Source of the DNA: Geodermatophilus dictyosporus
GTDB lineage: Bacteria; Actinomycetota; Actinomycetes; Mycobacteriales; Geodermatophilaceae
Assembly (NCBI RefSeq): GCF_900115505.1
Contig: NZ_FOWQ01000002.1
Location: 690,673-754,672 of the forward strand
Length of the DNA: 64,000 nt
Direction: 5' to 3'
Below, in pieces: positions 31,264 to 53,501 of this stretch (position 1 is the stretch's first letter; each line of letters starts with the position of its first letter). The translations under genes and the position numbers were made by a program. Below the pieces are notes generated by a model, which saw only the letters and a program-made list of their open reading frames with translations, was not told the DNA's origin and searched no databases.

Positions 31264-32187
31264 TCACCTCCCGTCCCACCAGCGGGCGGCGGCCTCGCGG
31301 GGCGTGTGCCCCTCGGCGACGGCCCGGTTGAGCGTGACCAGGTCGATGGTGGTCAGCTGCGCGCTGACCGCGTCCAGCGCACCGCGCAACCGCTCGCCGG
31401 CCTCGTCGGCCAGCGCCGTCCGCACGATCGGCACGACGTTCTCGCGGGGCTGCAGCGACCGGTCGTCGCGGAGCAGCAGCAGCGCGGTGTCGACGAGGTG
31501 GGGGTCGGTCGTCTCCAGCATCCCGACGTGGACCTGCCCGGTGAGCAGCGCCTCCACCGTGGCCGCGCGCGAGGGCATGCTGCGGACGCCGGCGAACTCC
31601 ACGCCGTAGACCTCGCGCAGGCCGGGCAGGCAGAAGGGCCGCTGCACGCACTCCGGCGGACCGCCGAAGACCAGCCCGGGCGCCAGCGCGGCGAGGTCGG
31701 AGAGCGTGGTCATCCCGTGCTGCACGGCGAGGTCGGTCCGGACGACGAACCCGTTCTGGTCCTCGGCCGCGGCGGCGGCCAGCACGGTCATCCCCCGCGG
31801 CGCCAGCGCGGCCGCCAGCGCCTCCCGCAGCGGCACCGGGTCGTCGTGCACCGACCCCGCGCCGGGCTCGAGGAACTCCGAGGCGGTCCCGAGGTAATCG
31901 ACGACGACGTCGACGACGCCCTGCTCGAGCGCCGGCAGCACCACCTCCCGGGTGCCGATGCCGTGCTGCACGGTCACCCCGAACCCGGCCCGGCGCAGCG
32001 CCTCGGCGTAGACCTCGGCGAGTGCCTGGTTCTCCGGGAAGTCGTAGGAGGCGACGCGGACGGCGTCCTCCCCCGCGGGCGCGGGCTCCGCGGACGGCCC
32101 GCCGCAGCCGCACAGCACCGCCACCGCCACCGCCACCGCCAGCAGGATGGCGAGCAGCGGGCGGGCGAGCGGGCGGCGACGGGTCAC
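31264..32187 (-). CDS. OpuAC-type osmoprotectant/glycine-betaine-binding lipoprotein
   Basis: 307 residues from GTG 32187 (GGGAGG upstream). A signal peptide of Leu/Ala/Val repeats ends in VLCGCGG, a lipobox. The mature part is a type F periplasmic-binding protein: RVASYDFPENQALAEVYAEA, VVDYLGTASEFL, and LDAVSAQLTTIDLVTLN near the end, all typical of OpuAC/ProX-like compatible solute binders. No ABC ATPase or permease is beside it, so it is an orphan component or pairs with genes elsewhere. Confidence 0.88.
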   Translation of the reverse strand: MTRRRPLARPLLAILLAVAVAVAVLCGCGGPSAEPAPAGEDAVRVASYDFPENQALAEVYAEALRRAGFGVTVQHGIGTREVVLPALEQGVVDVVVDYLGTASEFLEPGAGSVHDDPVPLREALAAALAPRGMTVLAAAAAEDQNGFVVRTDLAVQHGMTTLSDLAALAPGLVFGGPPECVQRPFCLPGLREVYGVEFAGVRSMPSRAATVEALLTGQVHVGMLETTDPHLVDTALLLLRDDRSLQPRENVVPIVRTALADEAGERLRGALDAVSAQLTTIDLVTLNRAVAEGHTPREAAARWWDGR

Positions 32188-32279: not shown

Positions 32280-34064
32280 ATGGCGGCCACCACACGGGCC
32301 CCCGCGACGCCACCGGGGACGGCACCGGGGACGGCACCGGCGGCGGCACCGGCGACGGCACCCGCGCCCCGGGCACCCGCGGGAGAAGCGGTCCGGCGTC
32401 CGGGCCCCCCGCCGGTGCAGCGCGTGCACCGCCGCCGCCGGCCCTCCGGCGAGCCGCCACCGCTGCCGCGCCACCTCAACGCCTCGGGCAAGTGGTGGCT
32501 GGGCCTCAGCGGCGCCGTCCTGGCCAGCTGGGTCGTCGTGGTCGCCACCGGCAGCGTGGCCGTCTTCGACCTCGTCGACACCCGCGTCCTGCAGGCCCTC
32601 GCCGCGGTCCGCTCGCCCACCCTGACCGACGTCGCCGAGGTGGCCGGGGTGCTCGCCACCGGTCCGGCGATCCACGCGCTGTGGCTGGCCAACCTCGCCG
32701 TCCTGGCGGTGTTCCGGCGCTGGCGGCACCTGTTCGTGTGGATCGGCGTCGGCCTGCTGGTGATCAACACCGCGGCCACGCTCGCCGCGACGCTGCAGCG
32801 CCCGCGGCCCTACGAGGTCGAGCTGCTGGGCCCCTGGTCGGGGTTCTCCATGCCCTCGGTGCCGGTGACCGTGCTGGCCACCTTCCTGGTCAGCACCCTC
32901 TACTCGCTGGTGCCCGCGGGCCGCCGGCGCGACACGGGCAAGTGGGTGGTGTGCGGGCTGCTGCTGGTGACCGCCGCCTCCCGGCTCTACCTCGCCCAGG
33001 ACCACCCGACCGACGTCCTCGCCGGCGTGGTGCTCGGCGTCGCGGCGCCGCTGGCCGCCTTCCGGCTGCTCACGCCCAACGAGGTCTACCCCGTCGTCTA
33101 CCGCCGGGGCAGCCCGGCACACCTCGACGTCTCCGGGGCCCGGGGCGAGGCGATCGTCCGGGCCCTGCAGGACCAGCTCGGCCTGGTGGCCACCGCGGTG
33201 ACGCCCTTCGGCCTGGCCGGGTCGGGCGGCTCCACCCCGCTGCGGATCACCGTCAAGGCCGACGACGCGGTGGAGGAGGACGAGAGCTGCGTCTTCGGCA
33301 AGCTCTACGCCGCCACGCACGTGCGCTCCGACCGCTGGTTCAAGCTGGGCCGCACGCTGCTCTACGGCCGGCTGGAGGACGAGAAGCCGTACCACAGCGT
33401 GCGCCGGCTGGTGCAGTACGAGGACTACGTGCTGCGCCTGATGTCCGACGCCGGCCTGCCGGTGCCGCACCCGCTGGGCATCGTGGAGATCACCCCGGAG
33501 CGCGAGTACCTGCTGGTCGCGGAGTTCCTCGCCGGCGCCCGCGAGATCGGCGACCCGGAGACCGTCGTGGACGACGCGGTGATCGACCAGGGCCTGGCCG
33601 TCGTCCGGCGGATGTGGGAGGTCGGCATCGCCCACCGTGACATCAAGCCGGCCAACGTGATGGTGCGCGACGGGACGCTGTACCTCATCGACTCCGCCTT
33701 CGCCGAGGTGCGCCCCAGCCCGTGGCGGGAGGCCGTGGACCTGGCGAACACGATGCTGGTCCTGGCGCTGCGCACCGACCCCGCGCGGGTGTACGCCCGG
33801 GCGCGGCTGTTCTTCTCCGACGAGGAGATCGCCGAGGCGTTCGCGGCCACCCGCGGCCTGACCATGCCCTCGCAGCTGCGCCGGATGCTGCGGGCGCAGG
33901 GCCGCGACCTGCACGCGGAGTTCCTCCGGCTGCTGCCCTACCGGCTGCCGCCGGTGCGGATCCAGCGGTGGACCTGGCGCCGCGCCGGGCTGACCCTGGT
34001 CACCGGCCTGGCGCTGGCGCTGGCCGTGACCATCGCGGTCGACCTGCTGAGGTCCCCGCTGTGA
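32280..34064 (+). CDS. PAP2-kinase fusion membrane protein
   Basis: 594 residues. A Pro/Ala/Thr N-terminal tail (1-65) precedes a membrane PAP2-like domain (about 70-265) with TLQRPRP, MPSVPV in place of the PSGH motif, and SRLYLAQDHPTDVLAG. A protein-kinase-like domain (about 320-560) follows: HRDIKPANVMV catalytic loop and LIDSAFAE in place of DFG. A C-terminal TM helix (about 565-590) anchors the end. The His of the second PAP2 motif is missing, so the PAP2 part may bind rather than cleave lipid phosphates, or act atypically. First gene of a five-gene overlapping cassette. Confidence 0.85.
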   Translation: MAATTRAPATPPGTAPGTAPAAAPATAPAPRAPAGEAVRRPGPPPVQRVHRRRRPSGEPPPLPRHLNASGKWWLGLSGAVLASWVVVVATGSVAVFDLVDTRVLQALAAVRSPTLTDVAEVAGVLATGPAIHALWLANLAVLAVFRRWRHLFVWIGVGLLVINTAATLAATLQRPRPYEVELLGPWSGFSMPSVPVTVLATFLVSTLYSLVPAGRRRDTGKWVVCGLLLVTAASRLYLAQDHPTDVLAGVVLGVAAPLAAFRLLTPNEVYPVVYRRGSPAHLDVSGARGEAIVRALQDQLGLVATAVTPFGLAGSGGSTPLRITVKADDAVEEDESCVFGKLYAATHVRSDRWFKLGRTLLYGRLEDEKPYHSVRRLVQYEDYVLRLMSDAGLPVPHPLGIVEITPEREYLLVAEFLAGAREIGDPETVVDDAVIDQGLAVVRRMWEVGIAHRDIKPANVMVRDGTLYLIDSAFAEVRPSPWREAVDLANTMLVLALRTDPARVYARARLFFSDEEIAEAFAATRGLTMPSQLRRMLRAQGRDLHAEFLRLLPYRLPPVRIQRWTWRRAGLTLVTGLALALAVTIAVDLLRSPL

Positions 34065-34660
34065 CCGGCGCCCGCCGCGCCGCCGCGGTGGCCGTCCTGG
34101 CCGCCGCCCCCCTGCTGACCGCGTGCGGGGGCGGCACGAGCGTCAGCGTCGAGGTGCCGGCCTGCGCGAGCGGGGACGAGGGCAGCGCGGCCAACGGCGT
34201 CGTCCTCATGGCGCAGGCGGTGCCGACGGCGACCTGGGTGCCGTGCGTCGAGAGCGTCCCGGTGGGCTGGACCTTCGCCGGCCTGGACGCCCGCTCCGGC
34301 TCGGCCCGGTTCTGGCTGGACTCCGACCGGGACGGGGTGCACGCCATCGAGGTGCGGCTGACCGCGGAGTGCGACACCGCCGGCGCCACGGAGATCCCCA
34401 GCGAGCGGGAGGACCTCCGCCGCTTCGAGCGGGTCACCCAGGTCAGCCCGCAGTACCTCGGCCGGCGCTACTACGTCTTCCCGGGCGGCTGCACCACGGT
34501 GGTGTTCACCCTCTCGGGGGAGAACCGAGGCGAGCCGCTGGCCCTGGCCACCCAGGGCCTCGGGGTGGTGAGCCGCGAGGACCTGGCCGCCCAGGTGCAC
34601 ACCGAGAGCGGGGGCCGGCTGCACCTGGACCCGCCCTCCGACGAGGGGGACCCGTCATGA
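34061..34660 (+). CDS. Lipoprotein of unknown function
   Basis: 199 residues. The signal peptide ends LLTACGGG, a clear lipobox, so it should be lipid-anchored outside the membrane. The mature domain has several Cys (VPAC, VPCVES, TAECDT, GGCTTV) that may form disulfides, and a beta-rich pattern with RFWLDSDRDG. No family recognised. Start GTG 34061 overlaps the PAP2-kinase stop, and its stop overlaps the next ATG. It sits inside the cassette. Confidence 0.82.
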   Translation: MTGARRAAAVAVLAAAPLLTACGGGTSVSVEVPACASGDEGSAANGVVLMAQAVPTATWVPCVESVPVGWTFAGLDARSGSARFWLDSDRDGVHAIEVRLTAECDTAGATEIPSEREDLRRFERVTQVSPQYLGRRYYVFPGGCTTVVFTLSGENRGEPLALATQGLGVVSREDLAAQVHTESGGRLHLDPPSDEGDPS

Positions 34661-35763
34661 CCGCCGTCGCGCCGAAGGCACCTCCCGACCGGCCGCCGCG
34701 CACGACCCCGCTGTGGCGCCGGGTGCTCCCGCCGGTGCTCTCCCTCGCCCTGGTGGCCGCGGTCTTCGTGTGGTTCCTGCCCCGGTTCACCAGCCTCGCC
34801 GAGGTGTGGTCGGCGGTGCGCGGCCTGTCGTGGGCGGCGGTGGCCGCGCTCGCGGTCGCCGCCGTGTGGAACCTGGCCACCTACCAGTTCGTCATGGTCT
34901 CGACCATGCCCGGGCTGCGGCTGCGGGAGGCGACGGTCTCCACCCTCACCACGACCGCGGTGTCGAACACGGTGGTCGGCGGGGCGGCGCTCGCCCTCGG
35001 GCTGACCTACGGGATGAACTCCTCGTGGGGCTTCTCCCGGTCCCGGACGTCGGTGTCGCTGCTGCTGTCGGGGCTGTGGAACAACTTCGCCAAGCTGGGC
35101 CTGCCGGTGCTCGCCCTGGCCCTGCTCGCGCTGACGTCGTCCGCGCCGGGCGCGGGCCGGCTGGCCGCGGGGCTGGCCGGGGTGGGCGGGCTGGTCGCGG
35201 CGGTGGCCGTGCTGGCGCTGCTGCTGCGCAGCCGGGAGGGCGCCGCCCGCATCGGCACCGGCACCGGCCGGGTCGTCTCGGCGCTGCTGCGGCCGCTGGG
35301 CCGCCCACCGGTGCAGGGCTGGGACCGGGCGACGACGCGGTTCCGCGACCGCACCGTGGTGCTGCTGCGCGCCCGCTGGCACTGGCTGACCCTGGCCACC
35401 CTGGTCAGCCACCTGTCACTGTTCGCGGTCCTGCTGCTGGCGCTGCGCGCGGTGGGCGTGACCGCGGAGCAGGTCGGCGCGGTGGAGGCGCTGGCGGTCT
35501 TCGCCTTCGCCCGGCTGCTGACCGCCGTCCCCTTCACCCCGGGCGGGCTGGGCGTCGTCGAGCTGGCGCTGCTCACCGGGCTCTCGGCCTCCGGCGGCGA
35601 CCGGCCGCTGGTGGCGGCCGCGGTCCTGCTCTTCCGGGGGCTGACCTACCTGCTGCCGATCCCCCTCGGCGTCGGCACGTACCTGTTCTGGCGGCACAAC
35701 CGCTCGTGGCGGCGGGAGCCGAACTCCGCTCCGCGCACGGAGCTGGTGCCGGAGACGGCGTGA
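34657..35763 (+). CDS. UPF0104 / LPG-synthase-TM-like integral membrane protein
   Basis: 368 residues, about 8 TM helices. It matches the lysylphosphatidylglycerol-synthase membrane-domain (UPF0104, AglD-like) family: TTTAVSNTVVGGAALALGLT, VSHLSLFAVLLLALRAVGV and the signature PFTPGGLGVVELALLTGL. The cytoplasmic aminoacyl-transferase domain of MprF is absent, so a flippase-like or scaffold role is inferred. It overlaps its neighbours by 4 bp on each side. Confidence 0.88.
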   Translation: MTAVAPKAPPDRPPRTTPLWRRVLPPVLSLALVAAVFVWFLPRFTSLAEVWSAVRGLSWAAVAALAVAAVWNLATYQFVMVSTMPGLRLREATVSTLTTTAVSNTVVGGAALALGLTYGMNSSWGFSRSRTSVSLLLSGLWNNFAKLGLPVLALALLALTSSAPGAGRLAAGLAGVGGLVAAVAVLALLLRSREGAARIGTGTGRVVSALLRPLGRPPVQGWDRATTRFRDRTVVLLRARWHWLTLATLVSHLSLFAVLLLALRAVGVTAEQVGAVEALAVFAFARLLTAVPFTPGGLGVVELALLTGLSASGGDRPLVAAAVLLFRGLTYLLPIPLGVGTYLFWRHNRSWRREPNSAPRTELVPETA

Positions 35764-36386
35764 GCGGCCGCGCGGGCACCCGCCCGCGCCCGGTCGTGCG
35801 GCCGTGGGGCGCCGAGGCGGTGCTGGCCGGCTGCGGTGCCCTCGTGCTGGTGCTCGCGGCGCTCCCGGTCGAGCCGGCGCGGGTGCCCGCCACCGAGGCG
35901 GCCGTGTTCCGCGCGGTGAACGGCGTCGACGTGCTGCCGTTCGTGCTGGTCTGGCCGGTCATGCAGCTGGGCAACGTGCTGGTGGTGCCGGCGAGCGCGC
36001 TGGTCGCCGCCGCGCTGCGGCACTGGCGCCTGGCGGCGGGGCTGCTCCTGGCCGGCGTCGGCACCTACCTGGCCGCCAAGGGGATCAAGGACGTGGTGGT
36101 GCGCGGCCGCCCCGACGGGCTCCTGGACGGCGTGGTGGTCCGCGGCACCGCCGCCCGCGGGCGCGGCTTCCTCTCCGGGCACGCCGCCGTCGTGGTCACC
36201 GTGCTCACCGTGGCCTGGCCGTGGCTGCGGCGTCCCGCCCGCGTCGCCGGGGTGCTGCTGGCCGCCGCCGTGTGCCTGGCGCGGGTGCACGTGGCGGCGC
36301 ACCTGCCGCTGGACGTGGTCGGCGGGGTGGGGCTCGGCCTGCTGGTCGGGGTGCTGGTGCGGCTCGCCGTCGGGCGGCCGGCCTGA
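35760..36386 (+). CDS. PAP2-family lipid phosphatase
   Basis: 208 residues, about six TM helices. Motif 1 KDVVVRGRP, motif 2 SGHA and motif 3 ARVHVAAHLPLDVVGG match the phosphatidic acid phosphatase type 2 pattern with both catalytic His present; the usual Ser of motif 3 is Ala. Probably dephosphorylates a lipid or polyprenyl (pyro)phosphate on the outer membrane face. GTG overlaps the UPF0104 stop, and its stop overlaps the next ATG (TGATG). Confidence 0.9.
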   Translation: MSGRAGTRPRPVVRPWGAEAVLAGCGALVLVLAALPVEPARVPATEAAVFRAVNGVDVLPFVLVWPVMQLGNVLVVPASALVAAALRHWRLAAGLLLAGVGTYLAAKGIKDVVVRGRPDGLLDGVVVRGTAARGRGFLSGHAAVVVTVLTVAWPWLRRPARVAGVLLAAAVCLARVHVAAHLPLDVVGGVGLGLLVGVLVRLAVGRPA

Positions 36387-37036
36387 TGCTCGTCGACGCC
36401 CGCCGCGGCCTGCGGGTGAGCGCCGTCCTGCTCGGCGGTGCCGTCGGCATCGGCCTGCTGGTCGCCCTGCCGGCGACCCGACCGGCGGTGCAGGCGGTCG
36501 ACGACGCGGTGTGGGAGTGGGCCGGCGCGGTGCGCAACGAGCCGGCGACGTGGGCCGCGGTCGCGCTGTCGTGGCTGGGCAGCGTCTGGGTGAACTGGCC
36601 GCTGCGGGCGCTGGCGGTGCTGCTGCTGGCCGGGCGGCGGCACTGGGCCCGCCTGCTCGCCTTCGTACTGGCGGTGGTCACCAGCGAGGCGGCGATCGGC
36701 CCGGTGAAGGCCGCGTTCGACCGGCCGCGGCCGCCGGGCGCGCTCATCGAGACCTCGGCGGCGGCCTTCCCGTCCGGGCACGCCATCGCCGGCGCGGTGA
36801 CCGCGGTCGGGCTGGTGCTGGTGCTCGTGCCGCCGGGCCCGGCGCGCTGGCGCTGGGAGGTGCGGGCCGTGGTCTTCGCCGCGGTCATGGCGCTGTCGCG
36901 GGTCTACCTGCGCGCGCACTGGCTGTCGGACACCGTGGCCGGCGCGCTGCTCGGCGCGGGCCTGGCGCTGGGCTGGCCGGCGGTGGTGACGGCGCTGCGC
37001 GACCGCCGTGGGCGGGCGGCCCGCCCCTCCCCCTGA
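36386..37036 (+). CDS. PAP2-family lipid phosphatase
   Basis: 216 residues, about six TM helices, with a full catalytic triad of motifs: KAAFDRPRP, PSGHAIAG and SRVYLRAHWLSDTVAG. It is clearly distinct from the preceding PAP2 gene, so the two are not a fresh duplication. Last gene of the cassette, 102 bp before phaC. The substrate is unknown; undecaprenyl pyrophosphate or phosphatidylglycerol phosphate are family possibilities. Confidence 0.92.
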   Translation: MLVDARRGLRVSAVLLGGAVGIGLLVALPATRPAVQAVDDAVWEWAGAVRNEPATWAAVALSWLGSVWVNWPLRALAVLLLAGRRHWARLLAFVLAVVTSEAAIGPVKAAFDRPRPPGALIETSAAAFPSGHAIAGAVTAVGLVLVLVPPGPARWRWEVRAVVFAAVMALSRVYLRAHWLSDTVAGALLGAGLALGWPAVVTALRDRRGRAARPSP

Positions 37037-37138: not shown

Positions 37139-38899
37139 ATGACCACCACCGCCAGCCGTCCGACGCCGGACCAGCCGAACAGCCGGCCCTCCGCCGTCGC
37201 CGGGTCGACCGACGAGGCCACCGAGCAGGCCGGCGACGCCGTCCTCGGCCTGGACATGGTCCTCGTCGACGCCGCCCGCGGCCCACTGCGCCGGATGGTG
37301 CCCCCGGCCCGCACCCTCGCCCACCTGGGCGGCGCGCTGGTCCGCCGGCCCCAGGCCGTCACCCGCCACGGCGGTGAGCTGGTCAGCGAGCTGGGCCGGA
37401 TCGTGGCCGGCCGCTCGGAGATCGCGCCCTCGCCCAAGGACCGGCGCTTCTCCGACCGCGCCTGGAAGGACAACTGGCTCCTCCGGCGCACGATGCAGGC
37501 CCACATGGCCGCCGCCCAGGCCGCGGCGCGGCTGATCGACGACGTCGACCTCGACTGGCAGGACGACGAGCGGATCCGCTTCGCGCTGACCAACGTCGTC
37601 GACGCGCTCGCGCCCAGCAACGTGCCGTTCCTCAACCCGCTGGCCCTCAAGGCGGTCGTCGACACCGGCGGCCGCAACGCCGTCACGGGCGTGCGCCGGC
37701 TGGTGTCCGACCTGGCCTCGGCGCCGCGGGTGCCCTCGATGGTGGAGCCCGACGCCTTCACCGTGGGCGAGGACCTCGCCGTCACCCCGGGCGCGGTGGT
37801 GCTGCGGACGCCGGTGTTCGAGCTGCTGCAGTACCGGCCGACGACCGGGACCGTGCGCAGCGTCCCGCTGGTGATCGTGCCGCCGACGATCAACAAGTTC
37901 TACGTCACCGACCTGGCGCCGGGCCGCAGCATCGTCGAGCACTACGTCTCCGCCGGACACCAGGTCTTCATGATCAGCTGGCGCAACCCCGACGAGCGGC
38001 ACGCCGACTGGGGCCTGGACGCCTACGGCCAGGCGGTGCTCGACGCCGCCGACGCCGCCCAGGAGATCACCGGCAGCGACCAGGTGGCCCTCCAGGGCTT
38101 CTGCTCCGGCGGGATCATCGCCGCCATGGTGCTGGCCCACCTGGCCGCCACCGGCCGGCTCGACCGGGTCGCGGCGGCCAGCTTCGCCGTCACCGTCCTG
38201 GACTGGGCCCGCGCCGGCACCATCGGCGCGCTCATGGACGAGGAGGCGGTCCGCGAGGCCACCGAGAAGTCGCGCAAGAAGGGCTACCTCGACGGCGCGA
38301 TGCTGGCCGAGGTCTTCGCGTGGCTGCGGCCCAACGACCTGGTGTGGAACTACTGGGTCAACAACTACCTGCAGGGCAACCCGCCGCCGGCCTTCGACAT
38401 CCTCTACTGGAACGCCGACACCACGCGGATGAGCGCCGGCCTGCACCGCGACTTCATCGAGCTCGCCGTCGGCAACCAGCTCAGCACGCCCGGGGCGGCC
38501 AGCATGCTCGGGACGCCGGTGGACCTCTCCACCGTCACCGTCGACACCTACGTCACCGCCGGCATCGCCGACCACCTGTGCCCGTGGCAGTCCTGCTACC
38601 GCACGACCCAGATGCTCGGCGGGCGCAGCCGGTTCGTGCTGTCCACCGCCGGGCACATCGCCTCGCTGGTCAACCCGCCCGCCAACCCGAAGGCGTCCTT
38701 CCAGGTGGCGCCGGAGACGCCGGAGGACCCGGAGCGCTGGCTGGCCTCGGCGCACAAGGAGAAGGGCTCGTGGTGGCCGGACTTCACCGACTGGCTGGCC
38801 GAGCGGGCCGGTGAGGAGAAGCCGGCACCGGAGGAGCTGGGCAGCGCCGCGCACCCGGTCCTGGGGGACGCGCCGGGGACGTATGTCTTCGACAAGTGA
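37139..38899 (+). CDS. phaC: Poly(3-hydroxyalkanoate) synthase
   Basis: 586 residues, in the class I/II size range (about 560-600). The lipase-like box is GFCSGG with catalytic Cys322; Asp near 477 in AGIADHLCP and His near 505 in TAGHIASLVNPP complete the triad. AWKDNWLLRR and NNYLQGNPPPAFDILYWN are conserved PhaC segments. Polymerises hydroxyacyl-CoA into storage granules. ATG with GAGGAG upstream. Overlaps the depolymerase gene by 17 bp. Confidence 0.95.
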   Translation: MTTTASRPTPDQPNSRPSAVAGSTDEATEQAGDAVLGLDMVLVDAARGPLRRMVPPARTLAHLGGALVRRPQAVTRHGGELVSELGRIVAGRSEIAPSPKDRRFSDRAWKDNWLLRRTMQAHMAAAQAAARLIDDVDLDWQDDERIRFALTNVVDALAPSNVPFLNPLALKAVVDTGGRNAVTGVRRLVSDLASAPRVPSMVEPDAFTVGEDLAVTPGAVVLRTPVFELLQYRPTTGTVRSVPLVIVPPTINKFYVTDLAPGRSIVEHYVSAGHQVFMISWRNPDERHADWGLDAYGQAVLDAADAAQEITGSDQVALQGFCSGGIIAAMVLAHLAATGRLDRVAAASFAVTVLDWARAGTIGALMDEEAVREATEKSRKKGYLDGAMLAEVFAWLRPNDLVWNYWVNNYLQGNPPPAFDILYWNADTTRMSAGLHRDFIELAVGNQLSTPGAASMLGTPVDLSTVTVDTYVTAGIADHLCPWQSCYRTTQMLGGRSRFVLSTAGHIASLVNPPANPKASFQVAPETPEDPERWLASAHKEKGSWWPDFTDWLAERAGEEKPAPEELGSAAHPVLGDAPGTYVFDK

Positions 38900-52385: not shown

Positions 52386-53501
52386 ATGGATGAACCCGCC
52401 GCCCGTAGGCCTCGCGACCAGCACTCCTACGGGATGGCCGTGGGCGTCGCCCTCGTCACGGGTGCCGTGGCCGCCGTCTGCGCCGTGCTGCTCGGCCTGC
52501 CGCTGCGCGACCCGGACGGGTTCCTCGGCCCGACCTACGTGCGCCTGCCGTTGATCGCTGCGCTGCTGCTCGCGCTCGACGTGCTCCCCCGCGCCGTGCT
52601 CGGCGCGCGGTCCCCGAGGAGGCTGGCCGGGGAGACCGTCCGTGTCGCCCGCGAGCGGTGGCCCTGGCGCCGGCTCCGTCCGGTCCTGATCGGGCTCGCG
52701 GCCTTCTACGTCACGTACGTGGCCTACCGGAACCTCAAGCACTACCTGCCGCTGCTCCGGCCCGGCCTCGTCGACGACGAGCTGGCGGAGACCGACCTGG
52801 CGCTCACGGGAGGCGTCGCGCCCGCCGAGGTGCTGCACGACCTGCTCGGCACCGGTGTCGCCGCGCACGTCCTGTCGTGGGTGTACCTGGCGTTCCTGGT
52901 GTTCGTGCCGGCTTCCCTGGGGCTCGCCCTCGTCCGGAGGGGGCGGGCCGGGGAGGCCAGCTGGTACGTCACGGCGCTGTGCCTCAACTGGGCGCTCGGT
53001 ACCGCCAGCTACTACGTCCTGCCGTCGAGGGGCCCCATCTACGCGCAGCCGGAGCTGTTCTGGGACCTCCCCGAGACCGGCACGTCGCAGCTCCAGGACA
53101 GCCTGCTGCTGTCGCGGCTGATCGTCCTCGGCGACCCCCAGGGCACCGAGCGGCTCAACAGCATCGCCGCCTTCGCGTCACTGCACGTGTCGATCATCTT
53201 CACCGCTGCGCTCATCGCCCAGCTGACGCTCCGGTCGGTCGTGGTGCGCGCGGGCCTGTGGGTCTTCTTCCTCCTGACCGTGACGGCGACGATCTACTTC
53301 GGCTGGCACTACCTCCTCGACGACGTCGCCGGACTGGCGATCGGCGCGATCTCGGTCCTGCTCGCCGCGTGGAGCACCGGCCAGCTGCGGGGACGGCGGC
53401 AGCCGGCGCCCGTGCCACAGGGCAGCGCCGAGGCGCCCGGGACGGTCGGACCGCGGCGTCGCTCCCGGCGTCGTCCGCAGACGTCCCCGTCCACGTCCTG
53501 A
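52386..53501 (+). CDS. Aur1/inositolphosphotransferase-like PAP2 membrane protein
   Basis: 371 residues, about seven TM helices. YYVLPSRGPIY, the second motif as SLHVS and the third as GWHYLLDDVAG (His-x3-Asp) place it in the Aur1/Ipt1 inositol-phosphoceramide-synthase-like branch of PAP2, which can act as phosphotransferases. The tail is basic and rich in Arg and Pro. Divergent from the AftB-like gene; possibly acts on a glycolipid precursor. Confidence 0.85.
   Translation: MDEPAARRPRDQHSYGMAVGVALVTGAVAAVCAVLLGLPLRDPDGFLGPTYVRLPLIAALLLALDVLPRAVLGARSPRRLAGETVRVARERWPWRRLRPVLIGLAAFYVTYVAYRNLKHYLPLLRPGLVDDELAETDLALTGGVAPAEVLHDLLGTGVAAHVLSWVYLAFLVFVPASLGLALVRRGRAGEASWYVTALCLNWALGTASYYVLPSRGPIYAQPELFWDLPETGTSQLQDSLLLSRLIVLGDPQGTERLNSIAAFASLHVSIIFTAALIAQLTLRSVVVRAGLWVFFLLTVTATIYFGWHYLLDDVAGLAIGAISVLLAAWSTGQLRGRRQPAPVPQGSAEAPGTVGPRRRSRRRPQTSPSTS

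Follow-up and report, generated by a model that had tools for sequence, protein, structure and literature searches.

At positions 32280-37036 of the forward strand of a 64,000-nucleotide stretch of Geodermatophilus dictyosporus DNA (contig NZ_FOWQ01000002.1; hereafter the window), five open reading frames (ORFs) lie head to tail with successive overlaps of 4, 4, 4 and 1 bases. Gene A (32280-34064, +) encodes a 594-amino acid protein that, judged from Pfam matches (PAP2, E-value 1.1e-8; RIO1-type kinase, E-value 1.3e-4), alignment and a structural model, consists of a PAP2 membrane domain without catalytic residues, a RIO/Bud32-like kinase domain and a C-terminal hydrophobic helix. Gene B (34061-34660, +) encodes a lipoprotein with four invariant cysteines besides the lipobox cysteine, for which alignment and fusions with A suggest a role as partner or ectodomain of A. 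Gene C (34657-35763, +) encodes a UPF0104/LPG_synthase_TM protein of the MprF flippase-domain family (Pfam E-value 1.1e-16). Genes D (35760-36386, +) and E (36386-37036, +) encode PAP2 proteins (Pfam E-values 4.8e-14 and 7.5e-17) in which a motif search found the motifs intact, and E has YodM/PgpB and LpxE as sequence relatives. A preliminary description, made from the letters of this DNA, had proposed five genes overlapping at every junction, as is the case, and had placed a PAP2-kinase fusion at their base; the fused architecture stands, but its PAP2 domain lacks the residues for catalysis.

PAP2 phosphatases are defined by the motifs K-X6-RP, PSGH and SR-X5-H-X3-D. We aligned 41 A-type sequences: that of the window, 27 from 46 loci in other genomes and 13 from 19 distant regions (both sets are described below; the six further distant regions were cut, frame-broken or omitted). 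At the aligned motif positions, the motif-1 Lys, the motif-2 His and the motif-3 His are each found in none of the 41, with Pro replacing the motif-2 His in 36 and Asp the motif-3 His in 38, and the Arg of RP is kept in all 41. All 47 close A sequences have Pro and Asp at the two His positions, and a plain pattern search found the three motifs together in none of those 47 records (one stray SGH was seen). Placing the motif-3 His one residue later, at His242 of the window protein, was ruled out, as relatives have Ala, Gly, Thr or others there. The A profile matches Bacillus subtilis YodM/PgpB (5jki) over the PAP2 domain with an E-value of 9.9e-12, and the domain is therefore assigned to the PAP2 fold. 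By its sequence it is catalytically degenerate, which rules out a unit of three active phosphatases. The three PAP2 domains first described are thus two with intact motifs, D and E, and one degenerate at the motif positions. All three motifs occur in 19 of 22 D records and in 22 of 22 E records, the window D and E both being intact; the exceptions among D are one record cut at a contig end (L040), one deviating in motif 3 (L034) and one in motif 1 (L049).

The kinase domain of the same 41 sequences, which extend down to 45% identity, retains the Lys, Glu, His, Arg, Asp, Lys, Asn and Asp in every case, and with all the checked catalytic-core residues present it is predicted to be active. The RIO1 profile scores 22.1 bits, just above the cut-off of 22.0, and the best NCBIfam match is Bud32 (E-value 2.4e-6), at 27.2 bits below the cut-off of 125. 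The catalytic loop reads HRDxKPAN, and 16 residues lead from the DFG-type Asp471 to Asp487, without an activation loop. An AlphaFold2 model of residues 57-594 has a mean predicted local distance difference test (pLDDT) score of 83.0 and a predicted template modeling (pTM) score of 0.65. Among the Foldseek matches listed for this model there were only kinases, the lowest E-values belonging to ordinary protein kinases and the top target TM-score, 0.57, to Rio1 and RIOK1.

No Pfam family matched gene B at an E-value of 1, and a Pfam search with 28 B-type sequences returned nothing consistent. Besides the four cysteines, these 28 sequences share Arg172 without exception and have LMAQSVPTAS..VPC as a conserved stretch. 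The cysteines fit the Cys-containing lipoprotein initially described. The AlphaFold2 model of B has a mean pLDDT of 87.8 and a pTM of 0.81. PsbP, CyanoP, DcrB, Tsi3 and Apa, which we take to be a Mog1/PsbP-like group, recur among the Foldseek matches listed, with query TM-scores of 0.34 or lower, and provide a lead only. Mycobacterium tuberculosis Rv0585c is a possible further lead. The partial text of one paper (PMC6656915) settled nothing on this point. Since the window B is a lipoprotein, and since B follows the final hydrophobic helix of A in the A-B fusions, we infer from sequence that B would be extracytoplasmic and the A kinase cytosolic.

A search with gene A of 84,980 species genomes yielded 46 loci in other genomes, mostly from Geodermatophilaceae, with two from Virgisporangium and a few from Frankiaceae or Frankiales metagenome-assembled genomes (MAGs). 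The best-matching locus is 92% identical. One record, labeled Bacillus sp. AZ43 (UNVERIFIED_ORG; L019), carries a cassette that is 75-76% identical and looks like a mislabeled Geodermatophilaceae. B lies directly 3' of A in 46/46 loci, and C is within the cluster in 46/46: 3' of B in 44 and 5' of A in the two Virgisporangium loci, where C overlaps A by 4 bases in one and is separated from it by a PAP2 ORF in the other. With start codons chosen by script, 4-base overlaps occur between A and B in 41/46 loci and, where C is downstream, between B and C in 35/44. The gene order, whose conservation across relatives had been proposed as a check, is thus kept in all 46 loci, including two families beyond that of the window.

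D and E are optional. In the 42 loci where over 2.5 kb follow the last of genes A-C, a script counted 18 with D, 21 with E, 14 with both and 17 with neither; this count scores a 37% identical PAP2 protein (L045) as D, and places among the 17 a locus where D is fused to C (L048). That fusion, in a Frankiaceae MAG, is a single UPF0104-PAP2 ORF at L048:2555-4495. Divergent from the cassette, at 31264-32187 on the reverse strand, lies a gene for an OpuAC/ProX-type substrate-binding lipoprotein (PF04069, E-value 1.2e-42), a probable part of the system by its co-conservation: 40 of the 42 loci whose upstream sequence exceeds 1.2 kb have it, and only the two from Virgisporangium lack it. The conserved core is A, B and C with the substrate-binding protein. 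Of the unit of five genes proposed at the outset, A, B and C hold together in every locus, but D and E come and go, and the 31264-32187 gene, which had been omitted, probably belongs to the cassette system.

The closest PDB match of the substrate-binding protein is Archaeoglobus fulgidus ProX (E-value 2.1e-23). We take the quaternary-ammonium cage of A. fulgidus ProX to be formed by Tyr63, Tyr111, Tyr190 and Tyr214. In a phmmer alignment the window protein keeps Arg149 and only one of the four Tyr. No ABC (ATP-binding cassette) permease or ATPase was found among the neighbor genes scanned, which makes the substrate-binding protein an orphan. Uptake of betaine is unlikely, with most of the presumed cage gone and no transporter genes for it among those neighbors, and the sequence suggests that the ligand is probably not glycine betaine. 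The homologs that lie beside A are 39-54% identical in distant genomes and 49% in L049, and plasmid-borne relatives are 33-44% identical (best 12 of 455).

The next gene 3' of the cassette, after a gap of 103 bases, encodes PhaC, a polyhydroxyalkanoate synthase by its Pfam match (37139-38899, +). It was ruled out as a cassette member, being 103 bases off, near the cassette in 32/46 relatives and in none of the 19 distant regions, and its position is ordinary synteny. Other window genes scanned near the cassette encode acyl-CoA dehydrogenases, a major facilitator superfamily transporter and a hemerythrin protein. Promoter and terminator scans detected none. A mobile or viral origin was ruled out: a viral-contig scan gave no relative, and a tblastn search of plasmids gave only two Mycolicibacterium fused proteins.

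Gene C is the only PF03706 match of the genome. It scores 61.6 bits against the Pfam LPG_synthase_TM cut-off of 33.4, which places it in the family, as the LPG-synthase-type membrane protein first noticed, and 42.4 against the TIGR00374 cut-off of 43.2, just below it. UPF0104 is treated as a flippase family (PMC5898192), and UPF0104 proteins as glycolipid or phospholipid flippases (PMC5898192; PMC10128005, on HexSDF). C is a putative lipid flippase or translocator. It could in principle be a flippase for a carrier lipid and, with PAP2 enzymes of the YodM/PgpB type alongside, serve a general recycling of undecaprenyl phosphate for wall synthesis. That role is improbable: the genome encodes one canonical BacA/UppP apart from the cassette, four of its seven PAP2 matches lie elsewhere and three within the cassette (DedA and DUF368 carriers were outside the search), and D and E are optional. 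The early proposal of a lipid or polyprenyl phosphate salvage, flipping or modification system thus survives as one functional unit in membrane-lipid (phosphate) biology, given the conserved order and the fused relatives, but not as undecaprenyl phosphate salvage as such, given the separate BacA/UppP and the loci lacking D and E. A further PAP2_3 protein is encoded within the window at 52386-53501 (+), remote from the cassette.

Seven of 60 genomes across the phylum, that of the window included, have strong A-type matches (E-value < 1e-50), and several of the seven carry more than one copy, on short contigs. Twenty distant regions were taken, several on short contigs, and A is present in 19. 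A and B form one ORF in 8/19 (L083, L086, L087, L090, L091, L094, L096 and L101), with weak B matches in L090, L094 and L096 and a broken frame upstream in L101. In four further regions B has an ORF of its own, either separate or overlapping, and three regions are cut within A. Near A, a substrate-binding gene occurs in four of the 19 regions and PAP2 genes in two. Two fragmented genomes of one family carry multiple A-type copies, several of them full and some partial, on separate short contigs (L054/L083 in G028; L055/L082 in G042). These may represent a paralog expansion, or partly assembly or contamination, and inspection by eye of the neighbors of the multi-copy regions revealed no shared theme.

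The three kinds of domain in genes A, C and D also occur in a single chain. A Mycolicibacterium plasmid encodes PAP2, kinase and UPF0104 as one 804-amino acid chain, adjacent to another PAP2. An 800-amino acid protein from the phylum sample (G036) matches D over residues 61-222 (48%), A over 182-527 (24%) and C over 712-799 (31%), making D the cassette member closest to the PAP2 domain of the fused protein. With this protein as query, 27/90 phylum genomes match at 1e-10, and a single match spans more than 700 residues in nine. The PAP2, kinase and UPF0104 domains belong together, but to judge by their motifs catalysis is not always retained: among 16 three-domain relatives assessed by eye, the PAP2 motifs are kept in three, the kinase motifs in four and both in three. 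Three two-domain PAP2-kinase proteins (L107, L130 and L131) show the opposite of A, with their PAP2 motifs intact and their kinase motifs degenerate. The degeneration among the three-domain relatives, of the kinase motifs in 12 and of the PAP2 motifs in 13 of the 16, is the main argument for a different view, in which the PAP2-like and kinase-like domains would serve UPF0104 transporters chiefly as scaffolds, with A a paralog becoming a pseudoenzyme. We consider this unlikely, as the eight kinase residues invariant in 41/41 A-type sequences would need selection for ATP chemistry. Proteins of the fused family are annotated as 'lysylphosphatidylglycerol synthase domain-containing protein' (e.g., WP_013470206, pMSPYR101). 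They have the same three parts in a single chain, whereas the cassette splits these into three genes and its A has a degenerate PAP2 domain of its own; neither B nor the substrate-binding gene was seen beside those fused genes whose neighbors were inspected. No description of the cassette or of the fused family was found in the literature searched, which covers few subscription journals.

Our favored reading, to which we give a probability of roughly 0.4, is that A and B together make up a transmembrane kinase unit, a ligand-controlled kinase governing an MprF-like lipid translocation and dephosphorylation step. The degenerate PAP2 domain of A would bind a lipid phosphate in the membrane without cleaving it, and B and the OpuAC-like lipoprotein would sense a ligand or the envelope state outside. 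By phosphorylating C or the lipid of C, the kinase might then gate or energize this translocator, and in loci that have them D and E could strip the phosphate from the lipid at the outer face. This reading is supported by the A-B-C order kept in 46/46 loci, the A-B fusions, and the match of D, A and C to one fused chain; by kinase residues kept and PAP2 residues lost in all 41 sequences, against the intact D and E of the same clusters; and by the persistence of the substrate-binding gene in close and distant relatives, compared with that of PhaC. A core of A, B and C with a substrate-binding protein suggests kinase action under ligand control no less than it suggests salvage. Several observations count against it. 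A classical protein kinase would not be expected to have so short an activation segment. Foldseek returned no match to the B model at an E-value of 0.001 (best 2.0e-3, 3hlz), and so no confident fold. B had no BLAST match in four of 16 uncut distant regions. C was near A in only 2/19 distant regions, many of them on short contigs, which indicates that the A-C link is weaker outside the close relatives.

A lipid-phosphate cycle is a tentative alternative. Here A would be a lipid kinase acting at the inner face on a lipid alcohol or a glycolipid head group presented by the dead PAP2 domain, C would flip the product, and D and E would dephosphorylate it outside, giving one-way transport, with B and the substrate-binding protein merely carrying or presenting lipid. 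In its favor, there are fused PAP2-kinase-UPF0104 proteins, and 3/16 three-domain cases have both enzyme domains intact; the RIO/Bud32/Kdo/APH group of the A kinase includes members that act on small molecules or lipids; and D can be fused to C (L048). However, it is common for fused relatives to have neither enzyme domain intact, C is not nearby in most distant regions, and D and E are both missing from 17/42 loci by the script count that includes L048. Against a fixed enzymatic cycle stand the weak linkage of A to C in distant genomes and the fact that D and E are optional. Ligand-controlled gating or powering and a kinase-flip-phosphatase cycle are nevertheless close.

The cassette can be compared with several known systems. 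Gene C is of the same family (PF03706) as the MprF flippase domain, the AglD C-terminal domain and HexF, and HexF, according to a partial text, also acts in a small operon with lipid-modifying enzymes (PMC10128005); unlike these, the five-gene unit has no aminoacyl-transferase or glycosyltransferase partner and instead has a kinase and PAP2 proteins. D and E carry the motifs of PAP2 lipid phosphatases such as B. subtilis YodM/PgpB and LpxE, whereas the A domain, despite its profile match to 5jki, is without the motif-1 Lys and both catalytic His. A is like the RIO/Bud32 atypical kinases in its best NCBIfam match, its TM-score to Rio1/RIOK1 and the absent activation loop, but it is membrane-anchored, with the HRDxKPAN loop of ordinary Ser/Thr kinases. 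With PknB-type receptor Ser/Thr kinases the A-B pair would share its topology of cytosolic kinase, membrane helix and outside domain. It differs in the dead PAP2 domain in front, in that no PASTA repeats were found, in a kinase of another group and in an outside part that is usually a separate lipoprotein.

It is possible, if far from assured, that the cassette represents a new class of envelope receptor kinase, in which a phosphatase-dead PAP2 domain would sense lipid phosphate within the membrane, the outside would be read by a Cys-rich lipoprotein together with an orphan substrate-binding protein, and a RIO/Bud32-like kinase would relay to or power an MprF-like translocator. The dead PAP2 domain of A and the intact PAP2 proteins D and E within one operon offer a clean contrast, open to direct testing in non-pathogenic Geodermatophilaceae. 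If the proposal is true, a lipid phosphatase fold would have been turned into a membrane sensor or a substrate platform for a kinase, and the large UPF0104/MprF-like family, for most of whose members this question is still open, would gain a route of control or energizing.

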